A stretch of 64,000 nt of DNA from Cymodocea nodosa. Its lineage: Eukaryota > Streptophyta > Magnoliopsida > Alismatales > Cymodoceaceae. The translations under genes and the position numbers were made by a program. Shown here piece after piece: positions 25,001 to 61,895 of the stretch; positions within the stretch are counted from its first letter, which is position 1, and each line of letters begins with the position of its first letter. The notes beneath the pieces were generated by a model, which did not search any database, was not told where the DNA came from, and saw only the letters and a list, made by a program, of their open reading frames with translations. Where the stretch lies: NCBI GenBank assembly GCA_036874045.1, contig CM072338.1, forward strand, positions 14,840,501-14,904,500. The letters run 5' to 3'.

Positions 25001-27619
25001 GAACTATTATCTTTTGGCCTGCTGTTTGCTTGCTTCTACAACCATTTATAGCTGATATCCCCAAGGTGAAAGAGTATCAAGAAAAGTAAATTTTGACTTT
25101 GTTTTTGCCTAGTCTTGAGTTGGCTTCACATATATGAGAACAAATTCATCATGCTGATGCAGTTTGATTTCAAAAGTTTACCTTACATAGAGTATTGAGT
25201 TTTTCTGCTATTGCAACTTAACTCCTTCAAATCAGTCAATGATGACCACCTATGATTATGCTGGTAGTGACCACAGTGGTAATAGCAACGTAGAAGGAGA
25301 AAATCATCCTAACTTTTTTGCAGTTATTGTAAGTATACATCAACTTAATCATGGGGATGATCCTTTAATAATTTAAGATGAATCTATGTTACTCATGGTT
25401 ATTTGATTTGGTATGAATCAACATTGTGCAGTGCACCAGTGCACTTAATATGTAGTGTTAATCATGAATTTCTGGCATGTTGAATATATCCAACGTCAAA
25501 ACATGTTCTCACAACATAAGACATAGAATATGTTCTCACATATCAAGCTTTTAGTAGGAAATATCTATTGTGAGACCATGCATTGAATATAGAACTAAAC
25601 TAGGACATGTTTATGCACAAAAAATAGTTTGATGTTAATATAGGGACAGGATTTGCATAACCTATTGTGCATCAACCAGAAAACATGGACACAAGAAATT
25701 GATATAGGAAAACAGCGAGTCTCCTAAATGTGGCTTAAAGACAAGAAGGAAACAAGGTAATATATGTTAGAGTAATTTATAACTAGAAACACAGGCTAAA
25801 TCAAAATGGGATGAAGTATAATACTAAAACAATCAAGTGTATTCAAAATTTGAGCCATAGAAAAAAATTCCAATTAAAATTTCCCTATTTAATTGTACAC
25901 CTCTTGATTTCTGATGAAACTAATTTTAAGTAAAATTAATTTATCAATAGATCATGAATTTTTGTATAAAGGATACATATGAAAGAGCAGTTACTAAAGT
26001 TAAAACTATAGAAATAAATTAAGGAATTTCCATAATTTATAAGTTTTTACCAAATGTCTTTTCTAAGTTTACACCTGTTTGTCTTAGTTATAGATGAAAT
26101 AACTAAAGAAATTCATGAAGAACTATCCTGAAATATACTATTTGTTGATAACTTAATTTTGATTAATGAATGTAAGGCATGAATTAGTTCCAAATTAGAA
26201 TTATGGGAAGATACTTTGGAGTCTAAAGGATTTAGATTGAGTGGATCAAAAAATAAATATATGGAATGTACGTTCAATGAAAATAGAAATAACGATGAAG
26301 GTATATACTTTGATAATCATGAGGTTCATAAAAGTAACATTTTTAAATACTTCAAATCTATAACAAGTAGAAATGGAAAAATTATAGAAGATGTTATTCA
26401 TAAGATTAAAATAGGGTAGATGAAGTGGAGAAGTGCTTCTAGAGTGTTATGTGATAGAAGATTACTCTTAAAATTAAAAGGAAAATTCTATAAAACTGTT
26501 ATTCACTTAATCATACTTTATAGTTCAGAATGTTAGATGATAAAACATGGTTATATACAAAAAATTAGTGTTGCAAAGATGCTAATACTTGGATGGATGA
26601 GTAGGAGTACTAGAAGAGAAAAGTTGAAAATTAATTTTATTAGGAATAGAGTTGGAGTTGCACTAATTGAAGATAAGATTAAAAAAAATCAACTTAGGTG
26701 GTTTGGTTACATACTTAGGAGGGCAAAAGCTACACCATTTAGGAGAAGAGAATTAATTAATAGAAGAAGAAATTAAAAGAAGTAGAGAAACTCCTAAAAC
26801 TACTAGTTTAAGAATTTTGAGAAAAGATTTGAAATTATTTAAGTTAACTGAACAGTTAACCATAGATAGAAATATTTGAGAGCAAAGAATTGATGTGGTT
26901 GACTCCACATATTGAGATCATGGGGCGAGCCATTGTTGTTGATCAATCATGAATGCTTGACATAACTTAGATGTATAGATACATTAGGAAACCTTCCATT
27001 CAAGAAAGAAATCCAACCTGATCTGCACGATTCGTTAGTTTTTCCAGTGCCCTCACGAAATCTCTTTTTAGGAGAATCTCGATGGGGCAATGTCTATTGG
27101 CTGCTCTTTTATCACTTGTAAAGTGTACTTCAAGTTGCAGCTATTTAGGGGTAGATCATGTACGGGTCTAAATAGAATTTCTATTGGCTGCTCTTTTATC
27201 ACTTGTAAAGTGTACTTCAAGTTGCAGCTATTTAGGGGTAGATCATGTACGGGTCTAAATAGAATTTCGCAAACAGAGTGATAGGTACCAACCAGATCCA
27301 AGGCAATCGGGCATAGATCCTTCTAGGGCAAGTAAGGAAGATCCAAAAAAAGAAGCCATGACGGTAGCAGTGCTTACACTTGGAAAGTGCCGGTGACCTT
27401 GTCGTTGGCCGTCCGGACGGCAGTCTCGAGGTCGAACCCGAGGGACGAGGCGCCGGCTTCCTCGGCCGATTTGGAGGAGGCGTAGGAGTTCCATTCGGAC
27501 AAAAGCGAGCTGGACTGAGGAGCAGAAGAAGAAAAAGAAGAAGATGATGATGATGAGGGGTCGGGATGGCCAGTGGACAAGGGTGCCCAAGAGAACCAGG
27601 ATTCCACGGTCTTCTGCAT
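22098..27619 (-). CDS. SFT2-like vesicle transport membrane protein (4 exons)
   Basis: Minus-strand exons in transcript order are 27619-27378, 23238-22971, 22427-22323 and 22208-22098 (TAG). They are in phase and give 241 residues. The N-terminal 80 residues hold MQKTVESWFSW, a serine-rich run and a conserved LLSEWNSYAS block. The SFT2 domain follows: KELPGSVQSATSNIPSG, then about four membrane spans (roughly 108-132, 138-156, 172-194, 195-215) with FMFLPVMVLMPQKFAI-like signature, the loop GPRTQLSHMSSKERLPFTLG, YFPGGSAGLKFL and the end VMKCFGR. Yeast Sft2 works with Got1 in endosome-to-Golgi traffic at the SNARE fusion step, and the plant protein is inferred to act likewise in Golgi membranes. 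Length agrees with plant homologues. Intron 1 is 4,139 bp and holds two RTE fragments. It shares a 1.4-kb upstream region with the divergent FKBP gene. Confidence 0.93.
23428..23615. repeat. Degenerate AACCGGTT-type repeat in SFT2 intron 1
   Basis: Repeated words of the kind AACTGGCTGGTTGAACC, AACTGGTTTC and CAGTTAGTTAAACC alternate in both orientations. Such sequences are common in small plant repeats. The family is not identified. Confidence 0.35.
23998..24370 (-). mobile_element. RTE-type LINE, 3' end
   Basis: The reverse complement ends in the same 3' sequence as the copies at 26080-26946 and 46690-47515: ATGTGGCCAACCCTACATAG, a GGGATTATGATTTGG-like block, and a (TTG)n tail (AACAACAACAA on the plus strand at 24000-24010). 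Upstream in the element the minus strand translates to reverse transcriptase C-terminal pieces such as NQLKXFGHIF-type. Truncated at its 5' side. It is in the sense direction of the SFT2 gene. Confidence 0.7.
24371..26079. other. SFT2 intron 1, middle part
   Basis: No exon or transposon protein recognised. Of more even composition at 24540-25250, AT-rich after that. Confidence 0.4.
26080..26946 (+). mobile_element. RTE-type LINE fragment, C-terminal reverse transcriptase and 3' end
   Basis: Plus-strand translation reads through in two frames as the C-terminal part of an RTE reverse transcriptase: LWEDTLESKGFRLSGSKNKYM, then IRNRVGVALIEDKIKKNQLRW followed by FGYILRR. The 3' end has GATGTGGTTGACTCCACATA and ends GCCATTGTTGTTGAT with a short (TTG)n tail, as RTE elements do. 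It is broken by several stops and 5' truncated, and lies antisense in SFT2 intron 1. Confidence 0.85.
27093..27266 (+). repeat. 87-bp tandem duplication in SFT2 intron 1
   Basis: Two essentially identical 87-bp units, 27093-27179 and 27180-27266 (start CTATTGGCTGCTCTTTTATC, end GGGTCTAAATAGAATTT). No difference between the units was found by eye, so the duplication is recent. It lies about 110 bp downstream (in transcript direction) of the SFT2 exon 1 donor. Confidence 0.92.
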
Positions 27620-36776: not shown

Positions 36777-39700
36777 ATGGATAGAGGCGAGAGTGCCGGA
36801 GAATCTCACCAGGGGTCGGCGACGGCCGAGGGTTTGGAGGAGCACACCGCCCTCAAGACGAGGTCAAGGCGAGTGAGCTTTGCGGAGACCACGGCGATCC
36901 ACTTCTTCAGGAGGGAGGACGACGACGAGACTCCCCCGGACTCCTCTACCCCTGGGTCCGACATAGATGCTAGGGAGCCTCTGGATTTCTGCGTGGACCA
37001 GAGTGATGGAGACGATGATGGTAACCACGGGAATGGGACAGAGGAGGAGGAAGAGGAGCACGAGTTGTTTGTCAAGAACGTTGGTGATTCCTCTCCTGGG
37101 AGTGGCTTTGGTTCAGCCACTTCGAACGATGGTATGAAAATTTTTGCCTTTCCATTGATGTAAATTTCCTGGAAATGATTGTTTATTTGTTGCAGAAACT
37201 GGAACCCGTACTCAATTATACAACATTTGTTTCGTCTATTACGTGGCCTTTGGTTCAAATAATTTCTCTGTGTATATGTGGTCTGACAGACTTTCTTACA
37301 TTTTAAAATCATCAGATTATAATCTCTTTGGACCTGTATCGACAAGTTTCATCAGGTCAGACCGGACGGAAGGATTATCAGAGAACTCTGAAGATAATAA
37401 TCACGATATCACTCTTGACTCCACAACTTTCTCTATGCATTTCCGCAATGTGTTGCCTCATGATGATTTGTCTATCAATTCAGTGGGAAGCCTCAATACA
37501 CCAACTGGAGTTTATACACAAACCGACCCAGGAAATTTCCCCTCTTTGACAGGAGCAAGAAAAAAGCCATCTGGCATGATATCTGGATGCGATGTGAACA
37601 ATGATAGTGGCATGAGTTTTGTAACACAAAGATCGCAAAAATATGATTATGAAAAACTGCCTCCTGGGTTGGAAAGACTGCTTGTGAAGGCTGATGAGAG
37701 TATGGATATGGCATACCCACAGAGTGGTGTCAATATTACATCATCGTGTGTGGATATAGTTTCCTTAGAGAGTGGGGGTCAAGCTACATCTTTGAACATG
37801 GATAAAGAATCTCCAAAGGGTGATGCCAATATTGTAGTAGTTTGCATGGACAAAGTATCACCAAAGAGTGGAGGCAGGGTTTCATTATTTAGCATGGACA
37901 AAGGACCTCCAAAGAGTGGTACCAATATTGAAGAAGTTTGCATGGACAAAGTATCACCAAGGAGTGGAGGCAGGGTTTCAAATTTGAGTATGGATAAAGG
38001 ATCTCCCAAGAGTGGCACCAATATTGGAGTAGTTTGCACGGACAAAGTATCACCAAGGAGTGGAGGCAGGGTTTCATCTTTTGGCATTGACAAAGAGTCT
38101 CCAAAGGATGGGAACATTGTTACGTATTCAAGTATAGATATAGTATCATCAATGAACAGTGGTAATATTGCGTCATTAAACATGGGAACTGTGTTCCCAA
38201 AGAATGCCAATGAGCTTGAATCATCACATTCAACTAGAAATGATTCTTTGGAGCAGCAGGAGATGGCAAATAATGAAAAGCTACATAGAATACATGATGG
38301 CACTGAAACAGCTAATATGATGGATAAAATTTATGTTAATCCAGGGTCTTCAAGCAGTAATTTGTCGGGAAATGCATTTCAACCAGATACTTCATCTAAT
38401 TCTCAAACTAGGACTGGATTAAGTATGTCTGCAGAATCACCAAATGCTGTTAAAGGCAATGTAAGGTTTTCACCTGCTTGTTTCAATGTAATCAGTTATA
38501 TTTGAGATTCTGTTACTAGATGCTGTGTGCAAGTATCTTCATGTTTTTTGTTCTGTACTTGCTTTGGACTTCCTGATGTTCCCACTTTTTCAGATATCTT
38601 CATCTCATATTTCCAGATGGTAAGGTATTAAGTCTTTTATTCTACATGGTTCTTATTAACTGAAATTCAAGTTGGCACATAGTCAGATCAAGCCTTTTGG
38701 TTTTGTGAAGTCTATATACCTCTCATTTTTTCATGGGTATTGTTGGGAATTATTTTGCACCTTACTTGTACATTTTTAAAATTCTGAATCAACTTTTTTA
38801 GAACACACTTTCTGTAGCGTAAAAAGGTTAATCATAAGTCATTATTCTTCCATCTGTGCTAAATCAGTTCAGGATCATGTATATTATTATTCTTAATTAA
38901 CTGAATTGAGTGGCAAGTTTTGGTCTCTAAGAATTGTCTGAAATTTATGTTGGGATTCAGGTTCAAGCAAGAGGAAGCCCTTACAAATTGCATTCATCAC
39001 CTGTTATTGCACCTCACTTCACTGCATTGTTGACTCTAGATGATCAAAAACAGAGATCACTTCACAGTCAGCTGCATACTCCATATTATTTTTCAAAACC
39101 TGATCAGCTGCCTAAGTCTCCTTTTGGGGGATCCATCATTTCCTTGTCTGATAAGCAACAAAATTTTCTTTTTGACCCAGCAGTTTCATCCAAAAATCAG
39201 TCAATATCTGCTTCTCTTGGAGGGTATTCTGCTCATTCTTTGAAGATTGATATAGATAACCATGGCAAAAGAATCTCGGCCATTAAAAACAGCATCTCAA
39301 AATTAAAAAATAAATCTGTTGATGGTGGATTTAGATCTGAGTTTCCATCACAAAGTAGAAAGCACTTGCAGGCAGAGTTTGAAGCAGCACTTGAGAGAAA
39401 AACATCCTCATCTACTTCAATATGTGATAGCTTTTCCGTTGTCACAAGTAATGACATCCCTATTGAAAACCAATTGGTGAGTACTTTATGAAATGTCAGG
39501 AAAATAATCAATTATCTTGTCTTTTGGTTGTATCTACTAAGTCCATGTTTGGTTCAGTGCTTTTAAGTGTTTTTGGTAAAAAAAAATTAAAAAATGTAGA
39601 AAGCTGAACCAATTGCTCCTAAAAATACGGTTTATTAAAAACTATGCATTTTTGGCCTGCAAAATGAACTCATATGTTAGTTCAAATAATCTTGCTTTCC

Positions 39701-42700: not shown

Positions 42701-45700
42701 GTCACACGATATGTGAAATCTCCTCTCTCCACTTACATGAAGTAACACAGTCACTTGTAGATGAGTTTTTATTGTCAAGTATAAATTGGATGGTACGGTT
42801 GACATGTACAAGCATGCTTGGTGGCATGAGGATTCATGTAAACATATGGGGTTGATTATGTAAAGACATTCTCATTAGTTGCATGTTTGAATTCTCTATA
42901 AGTCATTCTCTTCATTGCCATTAACTAGTCTTGAGAGCTGAGTTAATTAGATGTGAAGAATTCTTTCCTTTATGATGACGTGACAGAATAGATCTTCAGA
43001 AAGCAACTTCTTAGATATTCTGTTCAATGAGAGATTAGGAGTGCCTTCTTAGGAAAGCAAAGTTCATAGACTTGATTTGAAAAATTTGGTAGCTGTGAAA
43101 TCCAACTTAAAATTAATTAGTGGTGAGTAGAGAGTCCAACATCATATAAGCCTAGGTTTTTCTCTTTTTAATCGATGTGGGAATTTTACTAACACATCCT
43201 TTGACTTGTGGCTTATTTATATGACAATAAGTACCTACATCATGAACCTACTCTAATACCAAGTGAAAGTTCAACTCATAGCTAATTGGCAAAAAAATAG
43301 CAAGTCTTCTTTCATATAAGGTTAACTTATTTTTCTTTTATATTGATGTGGGACTTTGTCTCAACACAACCCTTCACTTGTAGTTTTTTCATATTTTATG
43401 TCTATAAGTGGTCCACAATGGAAATTGACTTTGATATCATGTGAAAGTCTAACTTAAAAACAATTGCCAGTGAATGGAATGTGAAACATCATATAATCCC
43501 AGGTTTTCTCTCTTTTAAATTGATGTAAGACTTTTATTCAACAGTAGCATTGTTACCTCCTGTGGTTTTACATGACAACTTGGGAGGTGTAGTACAAATA
43601 AACCACCATCGGTAGTTCAAAAATGTTGGCTGAAAAACATTGCAAACTATTCATAGCTTATCAAAAAATGCTGAAGAAAAAATGCCAAACCTAATGCTAC
43701 GTAAGTTTCCATGTTTACACATCCTTTTGCATGCTTCTTTTTATTTACTTGGGAACCTCATATGTGTTGTTCTTTATGGCTATATGTTCTTGCTGCCATT
43801 CTGGTGTGATTTTCTTTTTCTTGCAATTCTAAGCTGACTTTTAAAATAAATTCTTGGATCCTGCCTCAATGTTAGGTGTCTAGAAATGTGAGAGTTCAAA
43901 TTCCTGCAGAACAGACACATCCAATCAATGATGGGTTAGTTCCTGTCCATCCAAGGGATCCAATTCCTAGATTACTAACAAACTCCTGTCATAGTCATGA
44001 TAACCATCAGTATCCTGAAGCTTTGCACAAGTCGATTCCTTGTTCTGATACTAAAATTATTGGAAAGAGGCAAAGCAATGAAGAGCTATCACTTATGAAT
44101 GAAACTGAGAGGGCTCACAAGCATAGGAAAACTATATCTGAAATTAAAGATGGAGCTTCTGCTTCTTCCTTCCGTCACACTGTTGCAAGTGAAGCCTTTA
44201 ATACTCAAGTTGAGGTATTAGCAAAGGATTGGAATTTAGTAAGTATTACAGAAGGATGGTTATTGTTTTTCTTAGTATAACTTATCATGTGCAATTCAAT
44301 TACACACTTCAAAAAATTTATTGATCTGGTAAATTCTTTCTCTATATTTATAATTTTCTGATCAAACATTTTGCTTTTATAATCTGGAAAATCTAGCAGG
44401 TTTTCTCCAAGGTATCAGAGATTGCAGAGAAGCTGCTGCCACCAGCTAATGCAATAAATCTAGCAGAGGTACAGTTTACATTTGTGAGCATGCTCATATT
44501 TATAATATTGATCAAAATGCAACTTTGTCAATTTAGCCAACTTTTTCTGATTACCAATTCTTTTCTTGTAGCTAAGACAATTTTGTTTTTTTATGTCTCA
44601 TTTAAAGATTGATACACTTGAAGATAAACTGACTGACCTTCAGAGGGCTAGGAAGTTTCATAGGCTTTACATTGACATGCAGTCCATGGTACGCAAATTT
44701 CTGCTCAACTGACTTGTCACTTTATCTTACCATAATAGTATACTTTAGGCCTTTTTTAACATGCACACATGATATAGTTTCTGATTATGACTTTACTATT
44801 TCAGATGAAACGACATAAGCAGTATGATGAACTGCAAAAAAGGTAATTGATTTTTAGGATCTGTTATGAGACCATTTCTCCTGCTGGTTTTACTTTATTA
44901 TACCATATTATAGAATCAAGATGCGTACCAAATGCAGCCTATAACTTCTTAAGATCTCGCAGAGCAGCTGAAGTAAAAATTTTACAAGATATGTTTGTGT
45001 ATGAGAAGACAAAATTACAGCTAGCAATAGCAAAACGGGATGCATTGCTTGTAAGTATCTAGATCACTGGATTTTCACTCTTTAGAATGGTTTTAGTTTC
45101 CAAATTTCATAAGTTTCTTGTTTGTTTTCTGCAGAAAAAGACGCAATATTTGCAGTCAGGAATTGAGGAATGCAATAGATTGAAATGCGCTTTTACAAAG
45201 AGTTACCCTTCCTATATTGGGAAAAGCAAACTGATGAGCTCCCTTCATCATTCAACTCATTCAACCATTAGATGTGATGTATGTTATTTCTTTATCATGT
45301 AGGCTTTTGAAGTATCCTTTGTTTGTAGTTTCGTTCATTTATGTAAAATTATATGAAATCACCATTTTCTGTTTTCAATCTACAAAAAATAGTTTGCATA
45401 CAAATACACAACAATAATCAATACCTTTTTCATGCATTTTCTCCATGCCAAATACCTTTTTCTTCATCTTATTTTTTTCTTAATGCCGAGTGTGTGTATT
45501 GATCATGGGTGTATGCCCTCAACATCAATGTCCATTGTATTCATTTCAGAAAATCATGCTAAGTGGGATTGTGGGGTTGGCAATGGCAATTTGTTCTCTC
45601 ATTTAGTTATTATCATCATTATATTTCTTGACCTTTGATAAATTTTTTTTAAATTTAACCATTTTATTTATGATCTTCCTTTACCATTTTTAAGCTCACT

Positions 45701-48700
45701 TAGATCTACTAGCTCTCTTCCTTACATATGTGCTTTATAATCTAGTATTCTGAGTCAAAGTGATTTGTGTCACCAATGCAAGTAACATGTGTCAACAAAA
45801 TTTTGGTGCAAGTAAAGAAAAGTAAAATCATTTAAGAAAAAAAGGAAGAGAAGAAAGATGACGGAAAAAGGAAAATTTCAAGTTTTTAGGAAAGTTTTTA
45901 AGTTTTGTGTTTGCAGGTGCTGTATGTATTAACTGAGTCTAATGATGTTAACAAATTGATCAGTGTTTACACTTGTGAATGTGTTGTGTAGGTTTTTACC
46001 TATGTTGATTAAGTTTGAAGATGTCAACATATTGATTACTGTTTATGTCTGTCAATTATCTATCATAAGTATTGTTGTTGATCGAGTCATGTGTAGGCAG
46101 ATTAAGGCAACTGATGTTCGTGCCTTCTTGCATTGTCGTCAAAGTAAATGACCATTGTTTATGCTTAGAAGTTGGTGTGCTGCTGTCTTTATTCTAAGTT
46201 TGTTTATGTTTTCCCTTTTTTCATTTATGTTTGAGTCATTGTAAGTCATTTTAGATGCTTTAGACTTTAGTTTAAGTGGAAATATTTGAGTATATGAATA
46301 AATAGATTCTTATACAAATTGTATTGTATGCATGGCGGCCCTATAGACCAAAGGTTAAGTGATATGTTAAATAGTACTCGTTACAGAAATTCAATTGGAG
46401 GGCAGTCTATAGTCCCATATTCTCTTCATGGTCTGCAGTCGTACAGACCAAAGGTATTTTTATGTAATTCATGGCACCTTGGAGTCCATTATACCATGTA
46501 ATCCATAATTACTAAATTTTTATGTATATACTATATATTCATAATACAAAAGTAAATTTAAATTTATATTATATATACATTTCATTTTATATATTTATAT
46601 TAAAACAAAGGAATTTTCAAGAGACATAGGTTTACATTAAAGGCTTTTTTAAGTCCATATTTGTTTGTTTTGGTTATGAATTAAATAATTATAGAAATCT
46701 AAAGAGATATACCTTGGTGTATGCTATTTGTTGATGACATAGTTTTGGTTGATAAAAATAAGGTAGAAATTAGTTTTAAACTAAATTGTGGAAAGATATT
46801 TTAGAGTAAAGATTTAGATTGAGTCGGTTAAAAATTGAATATGTAGATTTTAGATTCAACAAAAATAAGAATAATGATGAAAGCATATAATTAGTTGATC
46901 ATGATATTCATAATGATAAGACTTTTAATTACCTAGGATATATAACAAATAATAATGGAGAAATTGTAGTGGATATCATTCATAGGATTAAAGTAAAGTA
47001 AATAAAGTGGAGAAATACTTTTGGAGTATTATGTGATAGGTGAATACTTTTAAAATTAAGAGGAAAATTCTATAAAACTGTTACTTGCTTGGTCATGCTT
47101 CATAGTTCAGAATGTTAGGTTGTAAAATATGAATATTTTGCAAAAAGTCAGTGTTGTTGAGATAGCATGTTATTAGATGGATAAGTGATAATACTATAAA
47201 TGATAAATTTAAAAATAATTTTATTGGGAATAGAGTAGTTGTCCCTATTGAAGTTAAGATAAGAGAAAATTGGCTTATATGGTTTACTTATATCCTTATA
47301 AGGTAAAAAATATACTATTTAGAAGAGGAGAATTAATTAGGGTAGAAGAAATTGAAAAAGGTTTAAAACTACTTCGTTAGGAATTGTAAGACTAGATTTA
47401 AATTTATGTAATTTAATTAAAGATTTAATCATTAGATAAAAATACAGGAAAGAAAAAGATTGATGTGGTCAACTCTATGTAGTGGTATTATGACTTGGAT
47501 TGTTATTATTGTTGACACTCCCATTTTTGGGCTCCCTCTTTTTAATCCAGTATCCTTTTATTTAGGTCTCACAACTTTCATTTGAGTCCATAAATCCACC
47601 TTTTCGCTTTTTTCAAGCCTCATAGCTCATCCCCCTTTTTGTGGGTCTAAGAGCTCAACTACCTTTAGGCGTAGGCCTTATGACCTAATAATTTTGCATG
47701 TGGGTCATGTGACTTGTAATTTTTCTTTTGGCACCCTATATTGTGTAAATTTACCCTTCAAACCTTGAAATCCATATTCACCTTTTGTTGGGAGTCCAAA
47801 AGACATTTTTTCTACCTTTTTTTGAGCTTAAAGTTTGTCATCCTTTGTTTGGGTTTTAATAGTCCATTACCATTAGAAATGGGGAAAATAGCAATTGTAT
47901 GTGATAACCTATTGGTAAATCTCTTTCTTTTAAACTTGAAGATCATAAGTTCATTCTCCACCAAGTGTGCCAAAAAATTTCAATTTTTAGGTGATGTTAG
48001 TATTAGCATCATGTCATCGCCACCTAGGCATCACCTAGGCATCATGTTATTGTCACTAAATGCCTTGTTAGTGCCTCATCATTATCGTAGAAGTTACTTG
48101 GTGTCATGTCACTACCAACTAGACGTCACATGAATGTTATATCATTGCCACATCAATGTCATATCATTGTTACATGGCATCTCTTCATTAGGGATTTATT
48201 TTTTGAGTCATCAATATTTTCCACTAATCAAGTGTCGCCACATTATTGCCTTGTCAACGTCACATTGTCGTTACATAGGTACTATATCATTGTCACATCA
48301 TCATCTCTATTCTTTTATATATTAATGGATCTGACGACCTTGATTTATTTATATAGATTTGATCCAATGCTCTAGATTATGTCATTTGGAATCAATCAAA
48401 TGGTCTAGATTGCATCATCTCATTTATTGATTCAATTGCTCAAATCGAATCATCCAGATTACATCTGATGGTGGACAACTAATTAGTTTTTCATCTAATG
48501 GTCAAGATTGGATCTAGGATTAGCAACAAAGATTGAGCCACCTAGATTTGATTGGACCACCTAGATTGCATCTACCTAATTTTGATTACCCCAATCCAAT
48601 AATCAATATTTAATTTACTTTAATTTAGATGATCAAGATGCATTTTTAAATCAATGGTTGAGATCATGCTTCTTTTAATCCATCAAATGGCCTAGATCAC

Positions 48701-51700
48701 ACTTAATCATTGCGATTGAATGATCCTAATTTAATCTATCGATTGAATAAACAAAAGTTGTTCAATCTTCCACTATCTCCTTTGTTGAGTCGACAATCCA
48801 ACTTGCTTACCAGCTTGACCATGTTGAGCAACGAATTGAAGGAGAAATTTATTTCAACGATGCTAGCCAATAAGAAAAAGAAAAGGAGGATCAAAGGAAA
48901 GGGCATGGCATCAACACTTTAGATTTTTGAAACCTCCATTCGTACACCCCACTAGACGTTGCTCATTGCAACTCTGCTACCTGTACACTATCATTGTCCA
49001 CTTCCCTTATTCCATTGGCACTTACCATTGAATTCAAGTATTTGATCGTCAAAGTCTCGTCTTTACATTGTATGATGAGAAACCCTCAAATTTGTAGCAA
49101 CTTCAAGCTTTCAAAATTCCCTTTATTGCACAAAGAATTGTCAATCCATTGGACAATGGAAATTGAACTCCCGTGTTCCTTCCTCATCAAATGACCTACA
49201 CAAACTCTCCAGACTAGACAACTTTCCAAGGTTTTTAGATCGTAACTTCACTATAGTCCTTGATTCACATTGGAACATCACCCTTCACTGCTCGTTGCCC
49301 CAATGCCACTGTAGCTCTGTCACACAAATGTTTTCTTCTTCAACTTCATTGTTGAAACATAGACTCATTTGAGGACTTGTGTACTATCTAGACACTATGA
49401 AAAGCTCCCTTCCACCATCATCGTAGCTCATCATCAATTGCACAAGCCTCCTATGTCGAGTCCACCCTCCTCTTGTAGGTAAACATTGTCGTCTTCCTTG
49501 CCAACAACCAAAATAAGGGATGAACAACATTAGTTTGTCCCTTATGCATTAATTTTCTTTTCATATGATTTGAATGATTATAATGGAAATATTGCATTCT
49601 TGACCTTAAAATATTTTGGAATAAAATTTTGGTCATGTGTGTCTGTTCAAATATTTAATAGTTTTAGGAAGATTTTCTGATATTACATCAGGGTCTTTTG
49701 TTTTCTAGCTTAATAAAGGCTCAAACAGCCTATACTTGCGATTTTTTACTGGATTCCTATTGACTTGGATTTTTAATATTGTATTTTTCTTGAAAAGTAG
49801 ATTCATCTAGTTACAATATCTCTTTTGTTTCACATGATTTCTCTATGATTTTCTTGTTGATAGAATTATTAAATTCGATATTTATGTTCATATGACATGC
49901 TTTGTTTCAATTACTTATAACTTTTGATTGTATCGTTGGATTCTACTAAAATTTTGATATATTGTGGATCATTATTCAAGCTTTCTAACAAGCTAAAGAT
50001 TAGGAAAATTTGATTCTTCAATCAAAAGTTATTAATATTTGATTTATGCCACTTTTGTCTGACTTAATCTGCTCATATTTGTATGTATTTAGCCAATGAT
50101 TTTAAATCCAGCCACTAGATCTAATTGGTATTTTAGTAACTTGAAGCTTGTTTGATAAGCTTTCCAACATATACATTAGGGGGGGCTTGTGTACTCAGAA
50201 TCTAACGAAATTAAAAATTTTTTCCGTCAGATTCCAAGTCATGAGTTGTTTGTGCATTTTGGAATTCATGTGTAAAGGTTGGGAAAATGTTGGAATTCAT
50301 TTTCCAAAAGATTGCTCGACGCTCACCTTCGCCCGTTGAAGTATATATTGTTAATATTTTTTAATTAATTAATTATTTTAATATTATTTTTATTAAAAAT
50401 AAAATATTAATTATATTATTATAATTAATATTATTTAATTTTATAATATTAAAATCATAAATATTATTTAATTTAATTATTATTATTATTTTATTTATTT
50501 ATTATATTATTTAATATACAATATCAAAATTTCAAAAATTATATAATTTTCCTAACTTTCTTTGGCTAATACAAACGAAGTCTTAAAAGTCATTTATGGC
50601 TAATAGAATGTTCAGAATTATATTTTTTTATAATCAAAGTATTTCAATAATTATTTATTATTTACTTTCATTTATTCACTTCATAATAATTATATTTTTA
50701 AAAAAGTTATTTATTATTACATTACGAGGAATATAGAATTTATAATTAACCTTTTGTTGTTTTAAACATGTATTATAACTAAAAAGTTATCAATTTTTGT
50801 AATTTTTGATTTATTTTATATAATGATATACTTAATTAATTGATAAATGATATATAAACATTTAATTTAATAATATGTTCATTTATTAATGCAAGTAATT
50901 CTGCTAACTATAATTAAACTTACATTTTTTTTTCTTTTTATATTCTTATGTTTTTCTACTTACTATAATATATATAATTACTTCAGTTATACTGTTTAAT
51001 TCAGCTACCCTCCTAGAGGAGGCATCAATTTTATTAACAGTTCTGTTGATAGGATTAGGTATTGCTTGCATTGGCAATCCTCCATTAGGTCTAATTTCCA
51101 TTGATTCTTTCTGTCTAGGGGTATATTTCTATTTAAATTTTTATTTTGAATTGCAACATTTCCAAATACAAGATCTAGACGATTGTTTAATTGTTGGATT
51201 ATCTTTTCTAATTTTTCTATTCTAGATCCTTGTTCAATTAAAGCTTCATAACTCATATTTTTGTCATTTATATTTTCTCCACCCTAAAAATTGTTGTTTC
51301 TTCAAGATAAATTCGGATGATTTCTCCAATTAGGGTTATATGAATTTCTAAAGTTATCTTTTTGGTTTCTAGCATAAATAATATCTAAATCATTAACGTT
51401 TGCATTCTTTTCTGCTAGCTTTTGATTTAATGATAACTCTTCTATTTTCTTAGTTAATTTAACTTCAAGCATAGTGCTTGAATCTATTTCATGCATTCCC
51501 CTTGGCAATATTCTTTTATCTGTAATAGCTTTAGCTGAGTTTTCCCACTGTGTAGTTTTTTTGCAAAGTTTTCTAAATATGCCCATGCTTCTTCACTACA
51601 CAATTTTAAAAATTCATTCTGACAAGTAGATTCTAATAAAGATTTCATTGAAACATCTATGCTTTCATAAATTATACCTATTAATTATGCTTTACTCATT

Positions 51701-54700
51701 GCATGATGTGGACATTAAGTTAGTAAATCTTTAAATCTTTCAAAATATTTCCAGAATGATTCTCCTTGTTTTGGGCTACACATTAATATTTCTTTCTTCT
51801 TTTTAATCATTTGATGTGTTGGATAATATTTTTCTAGAAAAATAGAGCAAAATTTAGTCCATGCAGAAATTGAATCAGGCGATAAAGTATATAACCATTT
51901 CTTAGTTGTGTCTTTTAAAGAAAAATGGATATATCTAATTTTAATAGCATCAATACTCATGTTTGGTATTTTCATCATTCGACAAACTTCGTTAAATTCA
52001 TTACATTAATTGATAAATGATATATAAACATTTAATTTAATAATATCTTCATTTATTAATGCAAGTAATTCATTTCTTGATTAATTACATTTTCACTAAT
52101 TACTTTAATTCATTACTTAACTTTATTAAAAATTAATTTCCTTCAATTCTGTCATGTGCACAAACACTTAAATTTCAATTTTTGTCAAATTCCTGAACGT
52201 GCACAAATACCTAGATTTTAAATTTTTTCCATCAAATTCTAGGTGCACAAACAGGCTCTAGATCTAAAATTTATCTAGCAGATGAAAAGATCTGAATCTT
52301 GGTTTATTGCCCTTTGTTGCTTTTTACCTGCCTTGTATGCTTGTTGAAAATAAATTTTCACTTGTGATTTGCCTTTTGTGATTTTTGCTTGCCATTTTTA
52401 TCTTGATGCATATTTGTTAAGTTTTCAAACATTACTTATATTGCGCTTTTCTGATTTGCCACTTGTGAGTTATGATCTTCTAAAATGCACCAAAATCTTT
52501 AGTGCTCTCTATCTGTTGCGTCAACATTGTCTTACTTTCAATCACATTTTTCAACATCTATGGACTTTTAAATATGTAGTCCACAATTTTTCTCATATAG
52601 CTGGTTTGTTAATCTTCTATTTCCAAGTGGAATCATATCATTCCGCCATGTAATTATAGGAGTTTGAATTTTTGAACTTGGTCTTAATTGCAAATGGGTC
52701 ATCTATTTTTAAGCATGCATACTGAGACTATAGTAGTGACTACATTTTAGCTTAACCTAAAAGAATTTATTTCAAATTTTTCCCACTCATCCAATTTTCT
52801 GGTGCTTTTTAAATCATGCTTTTTCGAGCTTTGTGTTTTTCTTTGTGATTTTTTGAAGTTTGCATTGATTTGCAGATGCTATCATAGATTTGTCTTGTGC
52901 TCTTGTGTTCTTTAATTTGTTTGCACTTTATAATCATTCAAGTGTTTTTGCAGTGTATTTTTTCTAGATTGTAGACTCGATGTGCTTCAATCTAGAAGTG
53001 ATATCACATTTTTCTGACAAGTGTGCTTTTTGCTATGATTTTCTGAATTTGTGTGTTTCTGTAAATACTTCAGCAATTGAGGGGCTATTTTCCCTAGTAA
53101 TGAAAATCATATATCATGCATGTGCTTGCTTGTTTGAGTGAATGATTGTAATATCATGCCTATGTGACAAGTTTGATTGCCTATTCATGTCTATTTACAT
53201 TTATCTCTTTGATCATCTTATTACTTTGCACATGTCATGTTATGTTATTTTTATTTACATCATTATTTATAGAAATATTTATTGTTTAGAAATCATATTT
53301 AAATTTGCATTAGACAAGATGCCAGTTAAATCAACTTATATTTTTAAGACAAATAAAATGACATGATTTTTAATTTGAAGCACACTCTTGTTTTACTTTT
53401 TTATGTGGATGGTTGAACTCAAGTGTGAAGTCGCGTGCGTTGCTGCCTTTTATCATCACATGCTTGTTATTTTTTGTGACTTTATTAGTTTTTATTGCAC
53501 ATGGTTGGTCTCAAAAGTGAAGTTACGTGTGCTGCTCATTGTTATGTGCTTTAGATAATGTTTCATGTCATTTTGTTAATACATTTGAAACATGACATGT
53601 AGAAGGAAATCATAGAACGATAGATGACACTTGTAAATTACTTTTTATCTTGAGGATTAAAGAAATTTCTCAACTTTGAGAATGTAGTTAAAATAAGGTC
53701 ATTTTCCTTAGTTAAGTCAAGTCATAAAGATGCATTTGACATCTCATATAGGGCTAATGTCATGTTCACATTTAGTTTTCCTTCTCATTTTTGGTAAAAT
53801 TCTATAATTCCTTATTCTTTAGGTTATCACTTAGGCTTTGCATTTAAACAAGTGATAACCAGTTTAAACATATTAAAATCAATCAAGACAATTTCTTTGA
53901 GAGGGCATGAATGAGCATATCCATTCTACATCACATCATATTCACACCTTACTTTTTGTCTGTTTGCTTGTTTGTTTGGTCGCATCATGCATAGGTCATT
54001 CAAACTAAGATCATATATGATTCGTTCCTCATTCATCACACAAGTGAAGAGATGTTTATATGACCTTCTCCTATATCCTTAGTTTTATTCGTCTTTTGGG
54101 TAAAAATACCACTCTTATCTTCTCTTTTTTCACATGATTAGTTATTTACATGTATCATTATTCACACATTTAAGGATATCTGAGAGACCAAAAAATTAAG
54201 TGTATGAGGTGCCTAACAACTTTTCTACACATATTGGAACACTTATCTAGATTCTCTAGTTAGCAAACTTTTATGAATTCATTCTTTTTACATGTATTCA
54301 TGCATTATATGTAGGTTTTTCCTAATCTTCCCTTATATTAGATTAGGTGGCGACTCTATCTTTTCTTCTTTCTTTTAGAGCCCTCGTCATTCTCCTTTTG
54401 TGACCCTCGATTGGAGTGTTACAATTGTATATTATATATTTATAAATATTTAATAGTAGTTATACATATAAGATCATTGACCAAATATAAGCTTTTCCTT
54501 GGATTGTTGGCTTTATTAATTCATAAATAACATTGAAATACAGAAATAATCTTAAGATAACATCAAAAGAATGAAATGTAAAAATACTAATGTATATATT
54601 TTAAAAATATGTATGATTATATATTTTAATATGTACATTTCAGTGATATGTCATTAATATATATATGTATGTAATTTTTTATGTAATAAAAGATCTTAAA

Positions 54701-57700
54701 ATATTATATATATATATATATTTAAGAGAGTAGGGTGATTCTATTTGAAGAATAATAAAAAACGTGAAAAAGATGTTACAAACCAAAGAAAATAAGAAGG
54801 GAAAGAAACAATGCAATCTACGTTAGATAAAATATGCACTCTTCCACTCTAAAGATTAAAGAGTCCATTGCAAGGACAATCCAATGAAATTTGGTTGTGT
54901 TCCTTGGTAGTAAATCTTCTTTTGATAACATTAAAGATCTGTTTGTGCATCTAGAAAGTAATGAAAATGAATAGAAAGAAAGATTCAAAAAATTACAGAA
55001 AGTGACAAAAAGTTAGCAGAAATATAGGTGTTTGTGTACAATAAGAAATATAATAGAAAGTAATAAAATATAAATTTAATAAAATATAATTGTTCAATGC
55101 TTGTGACAAGTTTATAGATAAAATATGATTTTTACAATAACAGATGATGAAATATGATTTTTATGATTTATGATGGTAGAATCTGATTTTTAAGATTGAA
55201 GATGATAAAATGTGATTTTTATGATTTATGATGATAAAATATAATTTTTAAGATAAAAGATGATAAAATATGATTTTTAAGATGAAAGATGATAAAATAT
55301 GATTTATGATGATAAAATCTGGTTTTTATGATAAAAGATGATCAAATATGATTTATGATGATAAAATAAGATTTTTATGATTTATGATAAAATATGGTTT
55401 TTAAAATAAAGATGTTAAAATATGATTTTTATGATTTATGATAAAATATGATTTTTAAAATAAAAGATGTTAAAATATGATTTTTATGATTTATGATAAT
55501 AACATATGATTTATAATGAAATTAAAAAAAAAAAACTTTTGCTTAATGTCAATGAAAATGAGTCTGTCACTTTTCAATTTTTTCACCTCTTAGAGTTAGA
55601 AATGACAGAAAAATCTTTCCTGGAAAAATTAGAGTGGAAATTTTATTTTATATAATTCTAGATTTCATTCCTTTCCTGAAAAATTGAAATCAAGGTGGAC
55701 TGACCCATATATTGTCGGACAGTTTATTTATATAGGACTATAGATATTGAAAATCCTTATAATCAAACTTTCCTTATGTTTTATCTTAACTTTCTATTAC
55801 TTTTTTTTCCATCTCTTTTCGAAACTTTCCACTGTGCATAAATCTCCCCAAATTATCCGTTAGATAGCATGAAATCTCATTCCAATAACTTGTTTATCCT
55901 CCTTACCTTGCCCTTCAGATGAATAAGGAAACCAAAACAAATGTCATCAGATTTGCTGTTATAGGTAAATGAAGGAAAGGGTAATCTCCATAACTTGGTA
56001 ATAAAAGAGCAGTCCCAGAGCAGATGATTTTAAGATCTCAGGGTAATTCTTGCACATCACACATTTGAAATCTGCACTAATAGGACATTCGTTCCTGTGA
56101 ACTTTCAACAAAACACTGCCTTTGCATACTAGCCATTGAAACAGAATGTCCTCCAAGGGAGTTGTCTCCTTCCACATAATCTTGGTATCTTTCCATGTAG
56201 CAGATGATAACAACTCTTTACTGTAAGTGTGTTGGCACCTTCTTTTAGCCTAGACATCTGATCTATTTCACCTGGAATGGGGCTGAATTTGCATACCTTC
56301 TGAATCCGTAAGGTCACACTTTAGATTTTGTGTTCCTTGGAAAGTTTTCTGTAGTGAAAATCACCTGCCCACTGATCCTTTTAAAATGCTTCATTGAGGC
56401 AACATTGCCTTCTTTGTTATATGATGTTTCTACAAGAAATATGGTGATTAGAACTCCTTTTTTAATGCAGCAGTATCCCATCTGCCTGCCCTTCTTTCCA
56501 AAATAGAATTATACAACCACAATGAAAAAGAATGACTGAGCTTCTTTATAAAAGTTTCTTTCTCAACTCTATGTCAAAAAGTTGATACCAGTTGTGAACA
56601 GTTTGCTTTACCATGTTCATTTGGTATTTTAGCCTTCATAATTTTGATGGACAACAAGTTGAGATCAGCTTCAAATTTCCATAGCCACTTGATCAGGAGG
56701 GTATTGTTAAAATTCCTTAGTTCTTTGATGCCTAATCCTCCGTTTTTGAGAGTCTGACAAGTTCAGCCCATTTCACTGAATGAACTCTCCCTTTTTGTCA
56801 AGCTTAATTTCCTTTCCAAAACTAGGTGTGCATCATCCTTTCCAATGCTAACGCCACATAATCCTTTGGACAACCAGAAGACAGACATGGGAAAATCTGG
56901 CAAGCTGGATAACATGCTTTTCAGCAGGATAAGATGCTCTCCAAATCATAGATACCTGGCCTTCCTTCCATCCAATCTCTGATCAAAAGTATCACAAAGT
57001 GAGCACCAATCAGACCTCGGGGTGTTCTTCTAGGAATTGGGCAAACCAAGATACTTCATTGGCAGGTGTTCCGTTGTGGTATTCTATTCAGAATCCTAGG
57101 AAAATGGTAGATCTTTTCATATGTGAACTTCCATCAATAACTCTTTGAGAAATTCACTTTCAAACCAGAAACCATTTCAAAGCACTCCAGTAGGAATTGT
57201 AAGTTGATTATCTGATCTAAAGAAGCTCTGCAGATTGCCCTAAGACAAGGTGAGATCAGCAGTTATGTGTGACAATATCATGCCTGGGTACTTAAATGCT
57301 GTCTAGGTGCTTGCTTTGATAACACTAATGTAATCCAAGATGAGTGCTCTTCAGTTCAGATATTATGTTGCTCTAGTTTTTTTTTTTTTTTGTAATTTCC
57401 CATACTAGAAAAGCTTATATTTGGTCAATGATTTCCAGGAGCAAAACAAAGTATCATTAATGAGGCAAGAACTAGAAGGCCTAGAAGAAAGGTTGACGGT
57501 GTCTAGAAATGTGTTTGAAACTTTTTGCAACTTAAAAGGATGCACGAGTTTTGATGACATGATAAAGGTGATAAACAATCAATTAAGGAAGAAAAACTGT
57601 TGCAGTCTTATTCTTAAAGATTTGCTGGTAAATGATCTTCTTTCATCTTGATTGTTTATTCTTTGTATTGTCTGTTGTTTCCATCACTAATTTTTTTTAT

Positions 57701-58142
57701 AATTCTCTTAGCCATGGAAGATAGTTGACATACAAAATGAAGCAGATCAATGCCATGTGCTTGTTACTTATCATAATCTTCTCTACCAAAGGTTCCCTCA
57801 TGATCGTGTAATTTTGTTGTGTTAATGTGAAATTTACATGCCTTTTTCTGCTTCCATCTTAGGATGCAACATCCCATCTTTCCTTTCGTGTAACAGGTTC
57901 ACTTGTAAGTCTCTTCCTGGTTCAGGTTTACATTTCAGGAACTCTTTGAATGTTGCCAACATTGAAAAGGTCTACCCTTTGCTGTGCTCTAGTTATGCCA
58001 TTGTGTTGTCTCTTCTTTGACAGTGTATTAGTTCTATCAGAGATTTCCAAAGATGAGAGCTTGCACAGCCTTCAACTTTATCTTCACTACTGAGAATAAC
58101 TGCAGACTGGATGATTTGAAGTGCTTACAACAAGAAACACAA
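36777..58142 (+). CDS. KNL1: Kinetochore scaffold KNL1/Spc105/Spc7 (13 exons seen, 3' end missing)
   Basis: Exons: 36777-37131, 37316-38460, 38961-39476, 43876-44238, 44400-44468, 44608-44688, 44805-44842, 44963-45050, 45135-45278, 57439-57627, 57712-57791, 57897-57969, 58041-58142. All are in phase, 1081 codons without a stop. KNL1 links centromeric Mis12/Ndc80 complexes to checkpoint proteins and PP1. RVSF (residues 32-35) is the PP1 docking motif in KTRSRRVSFAET. NLFGPVSTSFIR and HDITLDSTTFSMHF (148-161) are the plant MELT-like block. Residues 248-423 are an eleven-copy 16-residue repeat. Residues about 794-996 are coiled coil (SEIAEKLLPPANAINLAE, LEDKLTDLQRARKFHRLYI). Residues 997-1081 begin the C-terminal RWD domain (PWKIVDIQNEADQCHVLVTY, FPKMRACTAFNFIF). 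Intron 9 is 12,160 bp. The last coding exon was not found up to 64000. Exon 2 could start earlier at 37197 in the same frame. Confidence 0.92.
37702..38229 (+). repeat. KNL1: KNL1 coding tandem repeat, 11 x 48 bp
   Basis: Eleven consecutive 16-residue units without gaps (residues 248-423). The usual form is [MVIT]-D-K-x-S-P-K/R-S-G, as in MDKVSPKSGGRVSLFS. Central units alternate between a GGRVS type and a GTNI type, which makes a younger 96-bp super-unit at 37841-37936, 37937-38032 and 38033 on. The outer units are more diverged. Serine-proline sites in most central units could be kinase targets (inference). Confidence 0.92.
39540..43080 (+). mobile_element. Ty1/copia retrotransposon fossil in KNL1 intron 3
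   Basis: The sequence at about 39700-39950 looks like the end of an LTR followed by a weak primer-binding-site-like stretch (TGATACCAAAGAAGG, 39936-39950), then a C-rich leader. Further right, short translated pieces recall copia domains: a protease-like SWIMDFRVSS at about 41470 and a pre-integrase-like DLHLWH at about 41814. It is heavily broken and old. Boundaries are uncertain. Confidence 0.45.
43085..43560 (+). repeat. Three tandem copies of a repeat of about 170 bp
   Basis: Units start near 43096, 43263 and 43441 with GTGAAAKYYMAACT-like sequence, and carry a shared GATGTGGGACTTT-like segment and a CTCTTTTAAATTGATG segment. Similar sequence is widespread in plant LTR or TRIM elements. 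Spacing is 167 and 178 bp. Located just before KNL1 exon 4. Confidence 0.65.
45279..46689. other. KNL1 intron 9, left part
   Basis: T-rich intron sequence with no recognisable coding or transposon domain. Confidence 0.4.
46690..47515 (+). mobile_element. RTE-type LINE fragment, third copy
   Basis: Same family as 26080-26946, more decayed. The start retains LFVDDIVLVD-like reverse transcriptase (the YADD-type block) at about 46720-46750. The 3' end has GATGTGGTCAACTCTATGTA and TTATTATTGTTG. Multiple stops. Sense orientation in KNL1 intron 9. Confidence 0.75.
47516..50163. other. Degenerate short-repeat region in KNL1 intron 9
   Basis: About 47980-48310 consists of degenerate words such as ATGTCATTGTCACAT / CACCTAGGCATCA. 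About 48350-48700 consists of degenerate AATGGTCTAGATTGCATCA-like words. Both styles occur in old LTR-element sequence, but no protein domain or clear LTR boundary is seen. The rest shows nothing recognisable. Confidence 0.4.
50835..50901 (+). repeat. 67-bp direct repeat, left copy (partner 52005-52071)
   Basis: Identical to 52005-52071 except for one base (G at 50877, C at 52047). Begins ATTAATTGATAAATGATATA and ends ATTAATGCAAGTAATTC. The pair brackets the gag fragment at a spacing of 1,170 bp. It is far too long for a retrotransposon target-site duplication. Confidence 0.95.
51005..51980 (-). mobile_element. Ty3/gypsy gag fragment (fossil)
   Basis: Minus-strand translation matches the retrotransposon gag family: LKDTTKKWLYTLSPDSIS, then a W..F...FLEKYYP-type block, SFWKYFERFKDLL, and a basic downstream part. 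No LTRs and no pol domains accompany it. It is a broken, isolated piece within the Harbinger-like element. It is younger than the surrounding gypsy-like debris, judging from its clean match to the family pattern. Confidence 0.8.
52005..52071 (+). repeat. 67-bp direct repeat, right copy
   Basis: Partner of 50835-50901, with one mismatch. It follows the gag fragment directly. Confidence 0.95.
52246..54945. other. Probable LTR-element debris in KNL1 intron 9
   Basis: No protein domain. The end of this stretch (about 54200-54430, with GATTAGGTGGCGACTC) resembles the LTR-to-leader region of plant Ty3/gypsy elements, so part may be an old LTR. The family is uncertain and no pair of ends was found. 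A (TA)n run lies at about 54704-54722. Confidence 0.35.
54946..55610 (+). mobile_element. Harbinger-like MITE with internal minisatellite
   Basis: Starts AAGATCTGTTTGTGCATC after ATTA. From about 55095 to 55515 it is made of degenerate GATAAAATATGATTTTTATG units. It is the plus-orientation counterpart of the element at 12505-13013, which carries the reverse complement of the same unit. The right end near 55600 is not precisely placed. Confidence 0.6.
55880..57400 (-). mobile_element. L1-type LINE, 3' half
   Basis: Read on the minus strand from right to left, the order is as in plant L1. First comes a reverse transcriptase tail with CFEMVSGLKVNFSKS at about 57130-57190. Next is GLGIKELRNFNNTLLIKWLW at about 56680-56740. 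Last is the zinc-binding RVT region with LPWRTFCFNGW (about 56120-56150) and residues typical of the CPxC...H block. There are many stops and frameshifts, so it is inactive. It ends about 40 bp before KNL1 exon 10, antisense to the gene. Confidence 0.8.
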
Positions 58143-59138: not shown

Positions 59139-59391
59139 ATTATTCGACCAGGCTAGGTTGGTTCTTGGGTCGATTCGGGCCGGGCCTAGGCTGGCCCGTG
59201 GGCCAATTCGAACCTGGTTAAAATCTAACGGAAAATAAAAAATAGAAAATAGAATATGATACCTCTCTTATATACATTAATAAATGTAAACATAAAAGTT
59301 GATGTATACAAAATTAATAAATGTTAAAGTAAAAGTTGTTAAAAAATTAATAAATGTAATACAAACTTGTTTAAATGTTGAACTTGATGTA
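59139..59391. other. Filler with a GC-rich palindromic patch
   Basis: 59165-59205 is strongly GC-rich within AT-rich surroundings and contains CGGGCCGGGCCTAGGCTGG followed by CCCGTGGGCC, which can fold on itself. Confidence 0.6.
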
Positions 59392-59771
59392 ACAATTGAA
59401 AATTAATAAATGTATTTATAAATAAAATAATGTGTTTGAATGATGAATTGATTATTGGAAATGTTGTAAATTTTTTTTTTTTTTAAATTTAAAATCAAAA
59501 AAATAAATATAAAAAATTAATAATTGAAAATTAATAAATGTATTTATAAATAAAATAATGTGTTTGAATGATGAATTGATTATCGAAAATGTTGTAAATT
59601 TTTTTATTTTTATTTTAATTTAAAATTAAAAAAATAAATATAAAAAATTAACAATTGAAAATTAATAAATGTATTTATAAATAAAATAATGTGTTTGAAT
59701 GATGAATTGACTATCGAAAATGTTGTAAATTTTTTTCTTTTTATTTTAATTTAAAATCAAAAAAATAAAAA
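59392..59771 (+). repeat. Three tandem copies of a unit of about 130 bp
   Basis: Unit phases at 59401, 59529 and 59660 (AATTAATAAATGTATTTATA, then TGTGTTTGAATGATGAATTG, then poly-T and AAATTTAAAATCAAAAAAAT). Very few differences, so recent. Confidence 0.9.
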
Positions 59772-59775
59772 ACTT

Positions 59776-60262
59776 CAATTGGATCGAAGTTGAGATTCGG
59801 TCTAACCGAAAAAAATAAAAAACTGAAAAACTTATGTTCTACCGAAGACTGAACTTCGGTCTGACCGAAGAAAAAAATAGAAAAGTTTCAGTTAGTCGGA
59901 TTGAAAAAATAAATAAAAGAAAAAAAAATTCGGTCGGATCGAAGGAAAAAATTTGGTCTGACCGAAAAAAAAGTAAAAAAACTAAAAAACTTTGGTTGGA
60001 CTGAAGGGAAAAATTTGGTCTGATCGAAAAAAAAGTAAAAAAACTATAAAACTTCGGTTGGACCGAAGGAAAAAATTCGGTCTAACCGGAAAAAAATAAA
60101 AAACTTAAAAACTTCGATCAGACCGAAGTTTAGACTTCCATTTTATCGAAGGAAAAAACAAAAAACACTTCAGTTAGTCGGAGTGTTGAACCGAAGAAAA
60201 ATAAAAATGAAGAAAATTTTGCTGATCGCACCGAAGCTGGTCTAACGGTTTGACCGAAAAAA
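59776..60262. repeat. Palindromic minisatellite, TTCGGTC..GACCGAA units
   Basis: About a dozen half-units of TTCGGTYKGACCGAAG separated by A-rich spacers (AAAAAAATAAAAAACT). Each unit is close to a perfect inverted repeat and the spacing varies from about 25 to 60 bp. Many CG steps occur in an otherwise CG-poor region. Confidence 0.85.
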
Positions 60263-60648: not shown

Positions 60649-61895
60649 TTAAATAATTCCAATTTCTTCATTTTCTAGATTAAATTCAGCTAACTCATCT
60701 TCTAATAAATCTACTCTGTTAGCTTTACGTATAAAATTATGTAATAGGAAGCAAGCCATCACAATCTTCGTTTGTGTATCATAAGGATACGACATATGTC
60801 TTCGTAAGATTGCAAAACGATGTTTAACAACTCCAAATGATCGCTCAATCACCGATCTTAATTGTGAATGTCTGTAATTGAAGTTTTCGATTGTATTTTC
60901 TGGAACTCTATTATTTTCATATTCAGATAGATGATATCTCACTCCTCAATATGGACAAATAAATTCAGGTCGATTAGGATAACTAGCATCAACTAAGTAA
61001 AACTTTCATGTATATAATTAAAAATTAGTGTAAATAAAAAATATATATTCAATAATGTCATTTTATACCTGGTGGAACCTTGAATGGATGATGTCTTGTG
61101 ACGACATCTTGAAGGATTCTTGCGTCAGAAGCTGATCTTTCCCAACCACTAAGAATATATGTAAATTCCATATCAAAATTACATGCGGTCATAACATTTT
61201 GACTTAACAATCCTTTTCTATTTCTAAATCTTGTTGTTTGTTGTCCATAAATAGTTGCCTTAATATGTGTTCCATCAATAGCACCAATGCAATTCTGTTA
61301 ACATATGAATAAGAAAATGAGAAAAAAATAATATACAAATCAATTTCATATGACAATATATATTTACCTCAAAATAGGGATACACATTTGAATCATTTAG
61401 TATTCTACTTGGAGTTGATGTTAGAGGCATTGCAAGAAGTTGTTTATGCAAGTTCAAAATTGCATTAAGTACTTCATTGAAGTATGTACTAACAGTCCAT
61501 GCAGACCGAGAGAAGCGCTCCCTTGTTACTCCATATCGTTGGTTTTGACCAACAGTGACAAGAAAGATTGCAAACTTCTCTTCGACACTAACATTGCTTG
61601 TATTTCCCATGTCACCTTCTCTTCGTAACAAATTACAAAAGTTAAGAAATACATGTTGACTCATTCTATATATTTTTCGACAATTATATGCTTGATGTGG
61701 TAATGATGGATCTAATAACCTTCTAATGTAGTCATGTCCTCTACTATAAATGCAATGTGTAATATTAGTCAATGTACTTGACATACATGCAACACTTGCA
61801 AGGAAGTTCCATAGTGAAAGAAGTAACATTCGTCGTCTTTCCGCTTCTTCCTCAAGCATATTCTTTAACAATTCCAAACCATCCATACCATTCAT
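60649..61895 (-). pseudogene. Harbinger transposase (DDE_Tnp_4 type), inactivated
   Basis: Exons on the minus strand are 61895-61368, 61294-61069 and about 61008-60649. The N-terminal part includes CRKIYRMSQHVFLNFCNLLR and GQNQRYGVTRERFSRS. The catalytic domain has GAIDGTHIKATIYGQQ (first Asp), FYLVDASYPNRP (second Asp) and VIERSFGVVKHRFAIL (Glu), so the DDE triad is present. An in-frame TGA at 60946-60948 stands where the family has an arginine codon (ICPY*GVRYHL); CGA to TGA fits methylcytosine deamination. The acceptor of the second intron also looks changed: the family frame calls for a CAG before GAAAGTTTTAC, and CAT is found. It normally cuts and pastes the element into TTA-like targets together with the Myb-like partner. 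It is otherwise well preserved, so the loss is fairly recent. Confidence 0.87.

Follow-up and report, generated by a model that had tools for sequence, protein, structure and literature searches.

Organization of the KNL1 locus

We have analyzed a 64,000-nucleotide stretch of Cymodocea nodosa DNA (hereafter, the window), whose forward strand carries a gene that encodes KNL1 (Table 1). This assignment, already made in the initial annotation, was confirmed with the spliced 291-aa C-terminal peptide, which matches the Pfam family PF18210 (Knl1_RWD_C) with 36.3 bits, above the cut-off of 27.8 (E 7.9e-9). The exons between 36777 and 45278 have consensus borders and keep the phase unbroken, and further exons are found at 57439-58142. 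A small additional exon (38594-38619) was discarded, since it would break the frame into the next exon. The 12-kb gap between recognized exons (45279-57438) is probably a single long intron, in which a small exon may have been missed. The last coding exon or exons were not found, and the reconstructed protein, of 1084 residues, is incomplete.

Table 1. Features identified in the window, with positions counted from its first nucleotide.
Feature	Position	Strand	Basis or remarks
KNL1 exon 1	36777-37131	+	Start codon, open frame, GT donor
RVSF PP1-type motif (exon 1)	36870-36881	+	Single RVxF pattern match in the 1084-residue reconstruction
KNL1 exon 2, containing HDIT and the array	37316-38460	+	AG/GT borders, 0 in-frame stops
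HDIT, MELT-like block	37402-37413	+	Residue 148
Repeat array	37702-38229	+	Eleven 48-bp units, 16 residues each; all-unit consensus starts M-D-K-V-S-P-K-S-G
Younger core of the array	37798-38085	+	Three 96-bp A+B superunits (units 3-4, 5-6, 7-8), 85-88% identical
Unit 11	38182-38229	+	In register, badly decayed, above chance
KNL1 exon after exon 2	38961-39476	+	Joined to exon 2 in phase 0
KNL1 disordered-region and coiled-coil exons	43876-45278 (43876-44238, 44400-44468, 44608-44688, 44805-44842, 44954-45050, 45135-45278)	+	Splice borders and frame
KNL1 C-terminal RWD exons	57439-57627, 57712-57791, 57897-57969, 58041-58142	+	Borders by eye; PF18210
Antisense open frame over the array	37779-38330	-	183 codons
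Two open frames	61275-62875	-	No Pfam match at E 0.01
Other TRF tandem arrays	59390-59769, 59903-60169, 55117-55516, 27089-27268		131 bp; 62/124 bp; 58 bp; 87 bp

The motif RRVSF (residues 31-35) is the predicted PP1-binding site of the protein. An RVSF near the N-terminus is presumably common in plants, and the HDIT block with its surroundings is presumably typical of flowering plants; this block lies upstream of the array, as initially annotated. The coiled-coil label of the exons within 43876-45278 is our assumption from their position. Searches of PDB sequences, run to E 10 for the C-terminal peptide (with phmmer) and the array and to E 1 for the coiled-coil one, returned no match, and no NCBIfam match came close to any cut-off.

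Exon 2 is 1145 bases long and has no stop in its own frame, with 19 and 36 stops in the other two forward frames, and none of 20000 base shuffles stayed open. The GC3 content is 0.67 in exon 1 and drops to 0.24-0.48 afterwards, a pattern that may point to a monocot. No relative of exon 2 was confirmed in collections of genome and viral contigs that hold no plant genomes. The sole locus in the genome contigs for the C-terminal part was rejected, being a 520-residue frame of a Bacteroidia contig with no tandem repeat, which by eye we take to be a bacterial response regulator.

The exon that follows exon 2 contains the segment KIDIDNHGKRISAIKNSISKLKNKS (39243-39317), which to our eye bears a faint resemblance to the KI motifs known from KNL1 of animals. 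Excerpts of one paper describe maize KNL1 as devoid of KI (PMC11675298). The window also carries several other tandem arrays and, on the minus strand, two open frames that presumably correspond to PIF/Harbinger-type transposon proteins (Table 1).

Architecture of the repeat array

The initial annotation described eleven exact, gap-free units in exon 2. The position, frame, period and number of the units were all borne out, but the units are exact in length alone, since their pairwise identity ranges from 44 to 90% in DNA and from 12 to 81% in protein. The region 37702-38229 divides in frame and gap-free into eleven 48-base steps, with an identity of 0.58 at lag 48 and of 0.71 at lag 96, far over the 0.27 mean (sd 0.02, maximum 0.35) of 2000 codon shuffles, and TRF scores the array 450 at period 96. 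In a leave-one-out profile, unit 11 reaches 2.4 bits, and units 1-10 reach 11.3-35.5 bits, far over what 89300 shuffled windows give as a single-window null. For a step that is in register the fair null is the single window, the maximum-over-all-positions threshold being too strict there, and by this null unit 11 has a p of 0.0006; its DNA identity with units 1-10 averages 0.48, over the maximum of 0.40 among flank windows (n=1612). Therefore, the count of eleven stands, with the last unit decayed. The ends of the array are sharp, because steps 0 and 12, just outside it, are at chance (0.20 and 0.25). A possible extra decayed unit at residue 454 was rejected: it is out of register and scores 5.9 bits, below the 7.7 bits that mark the 95% point of the maximum-over-all-positions threshold.

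The 96-bp super-repeat proposed for the middle of the array corresponds to units 3-8, in three copies that are 85-88% identical, whereas the outer superunits share 56-62%. Units 3, 5, and 7 group together with a bootstrap of 95%, and the group of units 4, 6, 8, and 9 obtains just 39%. When all eleven units are compared, those of the same parity resemble each other more closely (permutation p 0.007 for DNA and 0.005 for protein), but the core drives this signal. We do not claim an A-B alternation outside units 3-8, where outer-versus-core and outer-versus-outer comparisons give p values of about 0.2 and units 2 and 10 pair with a bootstrap of 27%.

The motif [MVIT]-D-K-x-S-P-K-S-G, initially assigned to every unit, holds in part. 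Six of the eleven units (3, 4, 6, 7, 8, and 9) contain D-K-x-S-P-[KR]; unit 5 has P in place of S, and S-P is missing from units 1, 2, 10, and 11. The D is conserved in ten of the eleven units and the third residue is lysine in units 3-9, with units 2 and 10 starting with VDIV and IDIV. The Pfam model RIM2a_ZnF scored 22.1 bits on the array, below its cut-off of 27, and was taken as a chance match. Two further observations concern this region. The antisense open frame that covers most of the array is most simply explained by the scarcity of stops in the repeat. The segment adjoining unit 1 upstream, KLPPGLERLLVKADES (37654-37701), appears helix-prone from its sequence and could, as a guess, be a separate docking motif.

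The synonymous divergence, calculated from few sites, amounts to about 0.09-0.23 inside the classes of the core and to about 0.79 when every pair is included. The array itself looks old, because its outer units have strongly diverged; the recent homogenization initially suggested would apply to units 3-8 and not to the outer units. Plant synonymous rates are roughly 2.6e-9 to 7e-9 per site per year. With these rates and so few sites, the age of the core would be, in rough terms, 6 to 45 million years and that of the whole array much greater, and therefore we predict that related genera share the array.

Constraint on the motif and possible roles of the array

For the study of selection, the nine-residue motif proposed earlier was fixed in advance and the remaining seven residues were treated as linker. 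The pN/pS ratio was taken across all 55 unit pairs and compared with neutral simulations on the unit tree, which was inferred from the same short units. The motif residues (1-9) have a pN/pS of 0.47, against a mean of 0.89 in the simulations, and just 1 of 600 neutral runs was equally low (7 of 600 with a free choice among 16 windows of nine residues). Therefore, the motif appears to be translated and selected as protein. Equally low values were found in 0 of 400 reruns with eleven units and longer branches, in 0 of 400 in each of two sets with units 1-10, in 3 of 400 with units 1, 2, 3, 4, 9, and 10, in 3 of 400 with units 3-8, and in 21 of 400 with the outer units 1, 2, 9, and 10 alone. The motif thus looks to be under a selection-like constraint as protein, the old outer units taken alone giving the weakest support.

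The linker has a pN/pS of 1.28. Its excess was reached in 27 of 400 reruns with eleven units and longer branches, in 43 and 26 of 400 with units 1-10, in 100 of 400 with units 1, 2, 3, 4, 9, and 10, in 6 of 400 with units 3-8, and in 297 of 400 with units 1, 2, 9, and 10. The high ratio is mostly unremarkable across the six reruns and does not establish positive selection on the linkers, which look unconstrained. The motif-linker contrast was matched by 30 of 600 neutral runs with the choice of window permitted, and the ratio for whole units, 0.77, is unexceptional (129 of 600).

The reconstruction has six SP[KR] sites, all of them inside the array, and these are also the minimal S-P sites of the array (units 3, 4, 6, 7, 8, and 9). 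The full CDK consensus [ST]-P-x-[KR] does not occur in the array and is present once elsewhere in the reconstruction, at residue 506. Units 4, 6, and 8 contain R-V-S, which fits the consensus of an Aurora-type site. According to excerpts of the respective papers, KNL1 of Arabidopsis carries phosphate at [S/T]P sites and CDKA;1 was recovered together with core kinetochore proteins (PMC12526889), and phospho-spectra of human KNL1 are most numerous for S32, a residue that precedes proline (PMC13060184). The initial description of the array as phospho-regulated is plausible from its six S-P sites and constrained motif, the phosphorylation itself being presumed.

Our preferred reading, to which we give a probability of roughly 45%, is a multivalent array of proline-directed phospho-motifs. 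We favour it because the motif is constrained, the SP[KR] sites are clustered in the array, and phosphorylation before proline is reported for Arabidopsis KNL1 and for S32 of human KNL1. Against it stand the result of the outer units (21 of 400), the motif-linker contrast (30 of 600), the ordinary whole-unit ratio and the mostly unremarkable linker ratio, as well as the presence of S-P in just six of eleven units and the lack of a full CDK site in the array. On this reading, the array would have begun long ago, when one coding unit of 48 bp was duplicated in tandem in the N-terminal half of KNL1, a half with little structure, and a two-unit 96-bp block would later have been copied to three. 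Each unit would pair a short linear motif, whose ideal form is [MVIT]-D-K-x-S-P-[KR]-S-G, with a linker of seven residues that is free to change. A CDK-type proline-directed kinase may phosphorylate the S-P sites in mitosis, and these phosphorylated sites would modulate partner binding or the charge that the region carries.

The array might instead be a tolerated minisatellite-like expansion, a spacer of little specific function whose pattern comes from replication slippage and the founder unit, which we consider rather unlikely. AlphaFold2 predicts no confident fold and no confident helix in the array, with a mean pLDDT of 41 for exon 2 and of 54 for the array, and this result, together with the unconstrained linker, the abundance of other tandem repeats in the window (57 overlapping TRF rows), the badly decayed unit 11 and the five units without S-P, agrees with a spacer. 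However, a neutral model seldom gives the motif ratio observed (1 of 600; 0 to 3 of 400 in five reruns and 21 of 400 in the sixth), and the 16-codon step has been held over eleven units despite a DNA identity that falls to 44%.

It is more doubtful that the array is MELT-like by function, i.e., that its units serve as docking sites for BUB3 or for proteins of the BUB1/MAD3 family (BMF). In that case D2 would stand in for the glutamate of MELT, and the phospho-switch, which in MELT is threonine 4 under the control of Mps1, would be serine 5 under that of a proline-directed kinase. Such docking is possible by analogy with the animal and fungal KNL1 arrays, which bind Bub3, and the VDIV and IDIV starts of units 2 and 10 and the conserved D point in the same direction. 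In an AlphaFold3 model of Arabidopsis KNL1-BUB3.3, excerpts of the paper put Met-Ser-Ile-Val at the place of MELT (PMC12595034). However, the MELT core [MILV][ED][ILMV][ST] fits none of the eleven units and has no match anywhere in the reconstruction, the array is not matched by Pfam MELT or MELT_2 to E 10 (a synthetic MELT control, written from recall, is matched by MELT with E 4.7e-43), and the lysine of units 3-9 occupies a position that is hydrophobic in MELT. This agrees with the initial view of the array as an expansion separate from the MELT-like block. In addition, maize KNL1 is described in excerpts of three papers as lacking MELT and as recruiting BMF1/2 through a 145-residue region (PMC11794483, PMC11503545, PMC11675298). 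Still more doubtful is the idea that a flowering plant built a docking array in KNL1 anew out of an unrelated motif, with a proline-directed kinase taking over the phospho-switch from Mps1 and with one BUB3, BMF or other partner per unit.

Finally, a folded beta-solenoid of 16-residue coils is very improbable: AlphaFold2 draws faint short strands that recur along the array, but its mean pLDDT is 54 and only 8 of the 176 residues reach 70, and the strands resemble the unrealistic beta-solenoids that AlphaFold2 is reported, in excerpts of one paper, to draw for repeat proteins (PMC11795689). We therefore rank the phospho-motif array ahead of the tolerated spacer, and the latter ahead of MELT-like docking.

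Comparison with other KNL1 proteins and repeat arrays

In the abstract of Tromer et al. from 2015, flowering plants are reportedly said to have no KNL1 repeats, at the low end of the range, and drosophilids about 35-40, at its high end. KNL1 is known to be prone to repeat growth, and the array of C. nodosa is a non-MELT form of this tendency, in plants reported to be free of such repeats. The idea that KNL1 of flowering plants is repeat-free would need qualifying. KNL1 of Arabidopsis and maize is described as lacking MELT repeats in excerpts of three papers (PMC11794483, PMC12526889, PMC11675298), whereas the C. nodosa protein carries eleven units. The RVSF near the N-terminus, the HDIT block, the coiled coil and the RWD domain are features that it presumably shares with them. 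Among the matches listed in the open-licence literature, as far as their excerpts go, we found no report of a repeat array in a plant KNL1, and the motif strings of the array were not found in that literature.

How checkpoint proteins are recruited to plant kinetochores without MELT repeats is an open question, for which the array offers a concrete candidate: with its selected-looking motif, it may be a plant-specific multivalent docking or regulatory region. The docking mode is reported to differ between monocots and eudicots (PMC11794483, PMC12526889, in excerpts). The 145-residue BMF1/2-binding region of maize and the eudicot-specific domain of Arabidopsis are lineage-specific segments of plant KNL1 that serve checkpoint docking, and the array may be compared with them. 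They are not described as repeats in the excerpts available. The maize region is said, in an excerpt, to form a helix (PMC11503545), whereas the array has no confident helix.

Outside KNL1, the array recalls the KSP-type repeats, an analogy only, given the different protein, period and spacing. These repeats, e.g., those of neurofilament tails, also place several S-P sites close to lysine, in a tail that is disordered. The closest parallel in KNL1/Spc105 itself is with the MELT arrays of animals and fungi (PF19221, PF15402), which likewise string short motifs in tandem along the N-terminal, disordered portion of the protein, with uneven decay and candidate phosphosites. The C. nodosa array differs from them in lacking M-[ED]-[LIMV]-[ST], in placing a proline-directed serine one residue later, in the third-position lysine of units 3-9 and in having no Pfam match. 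MELT arrays also grow by multi-unit blocks, as this array has done.
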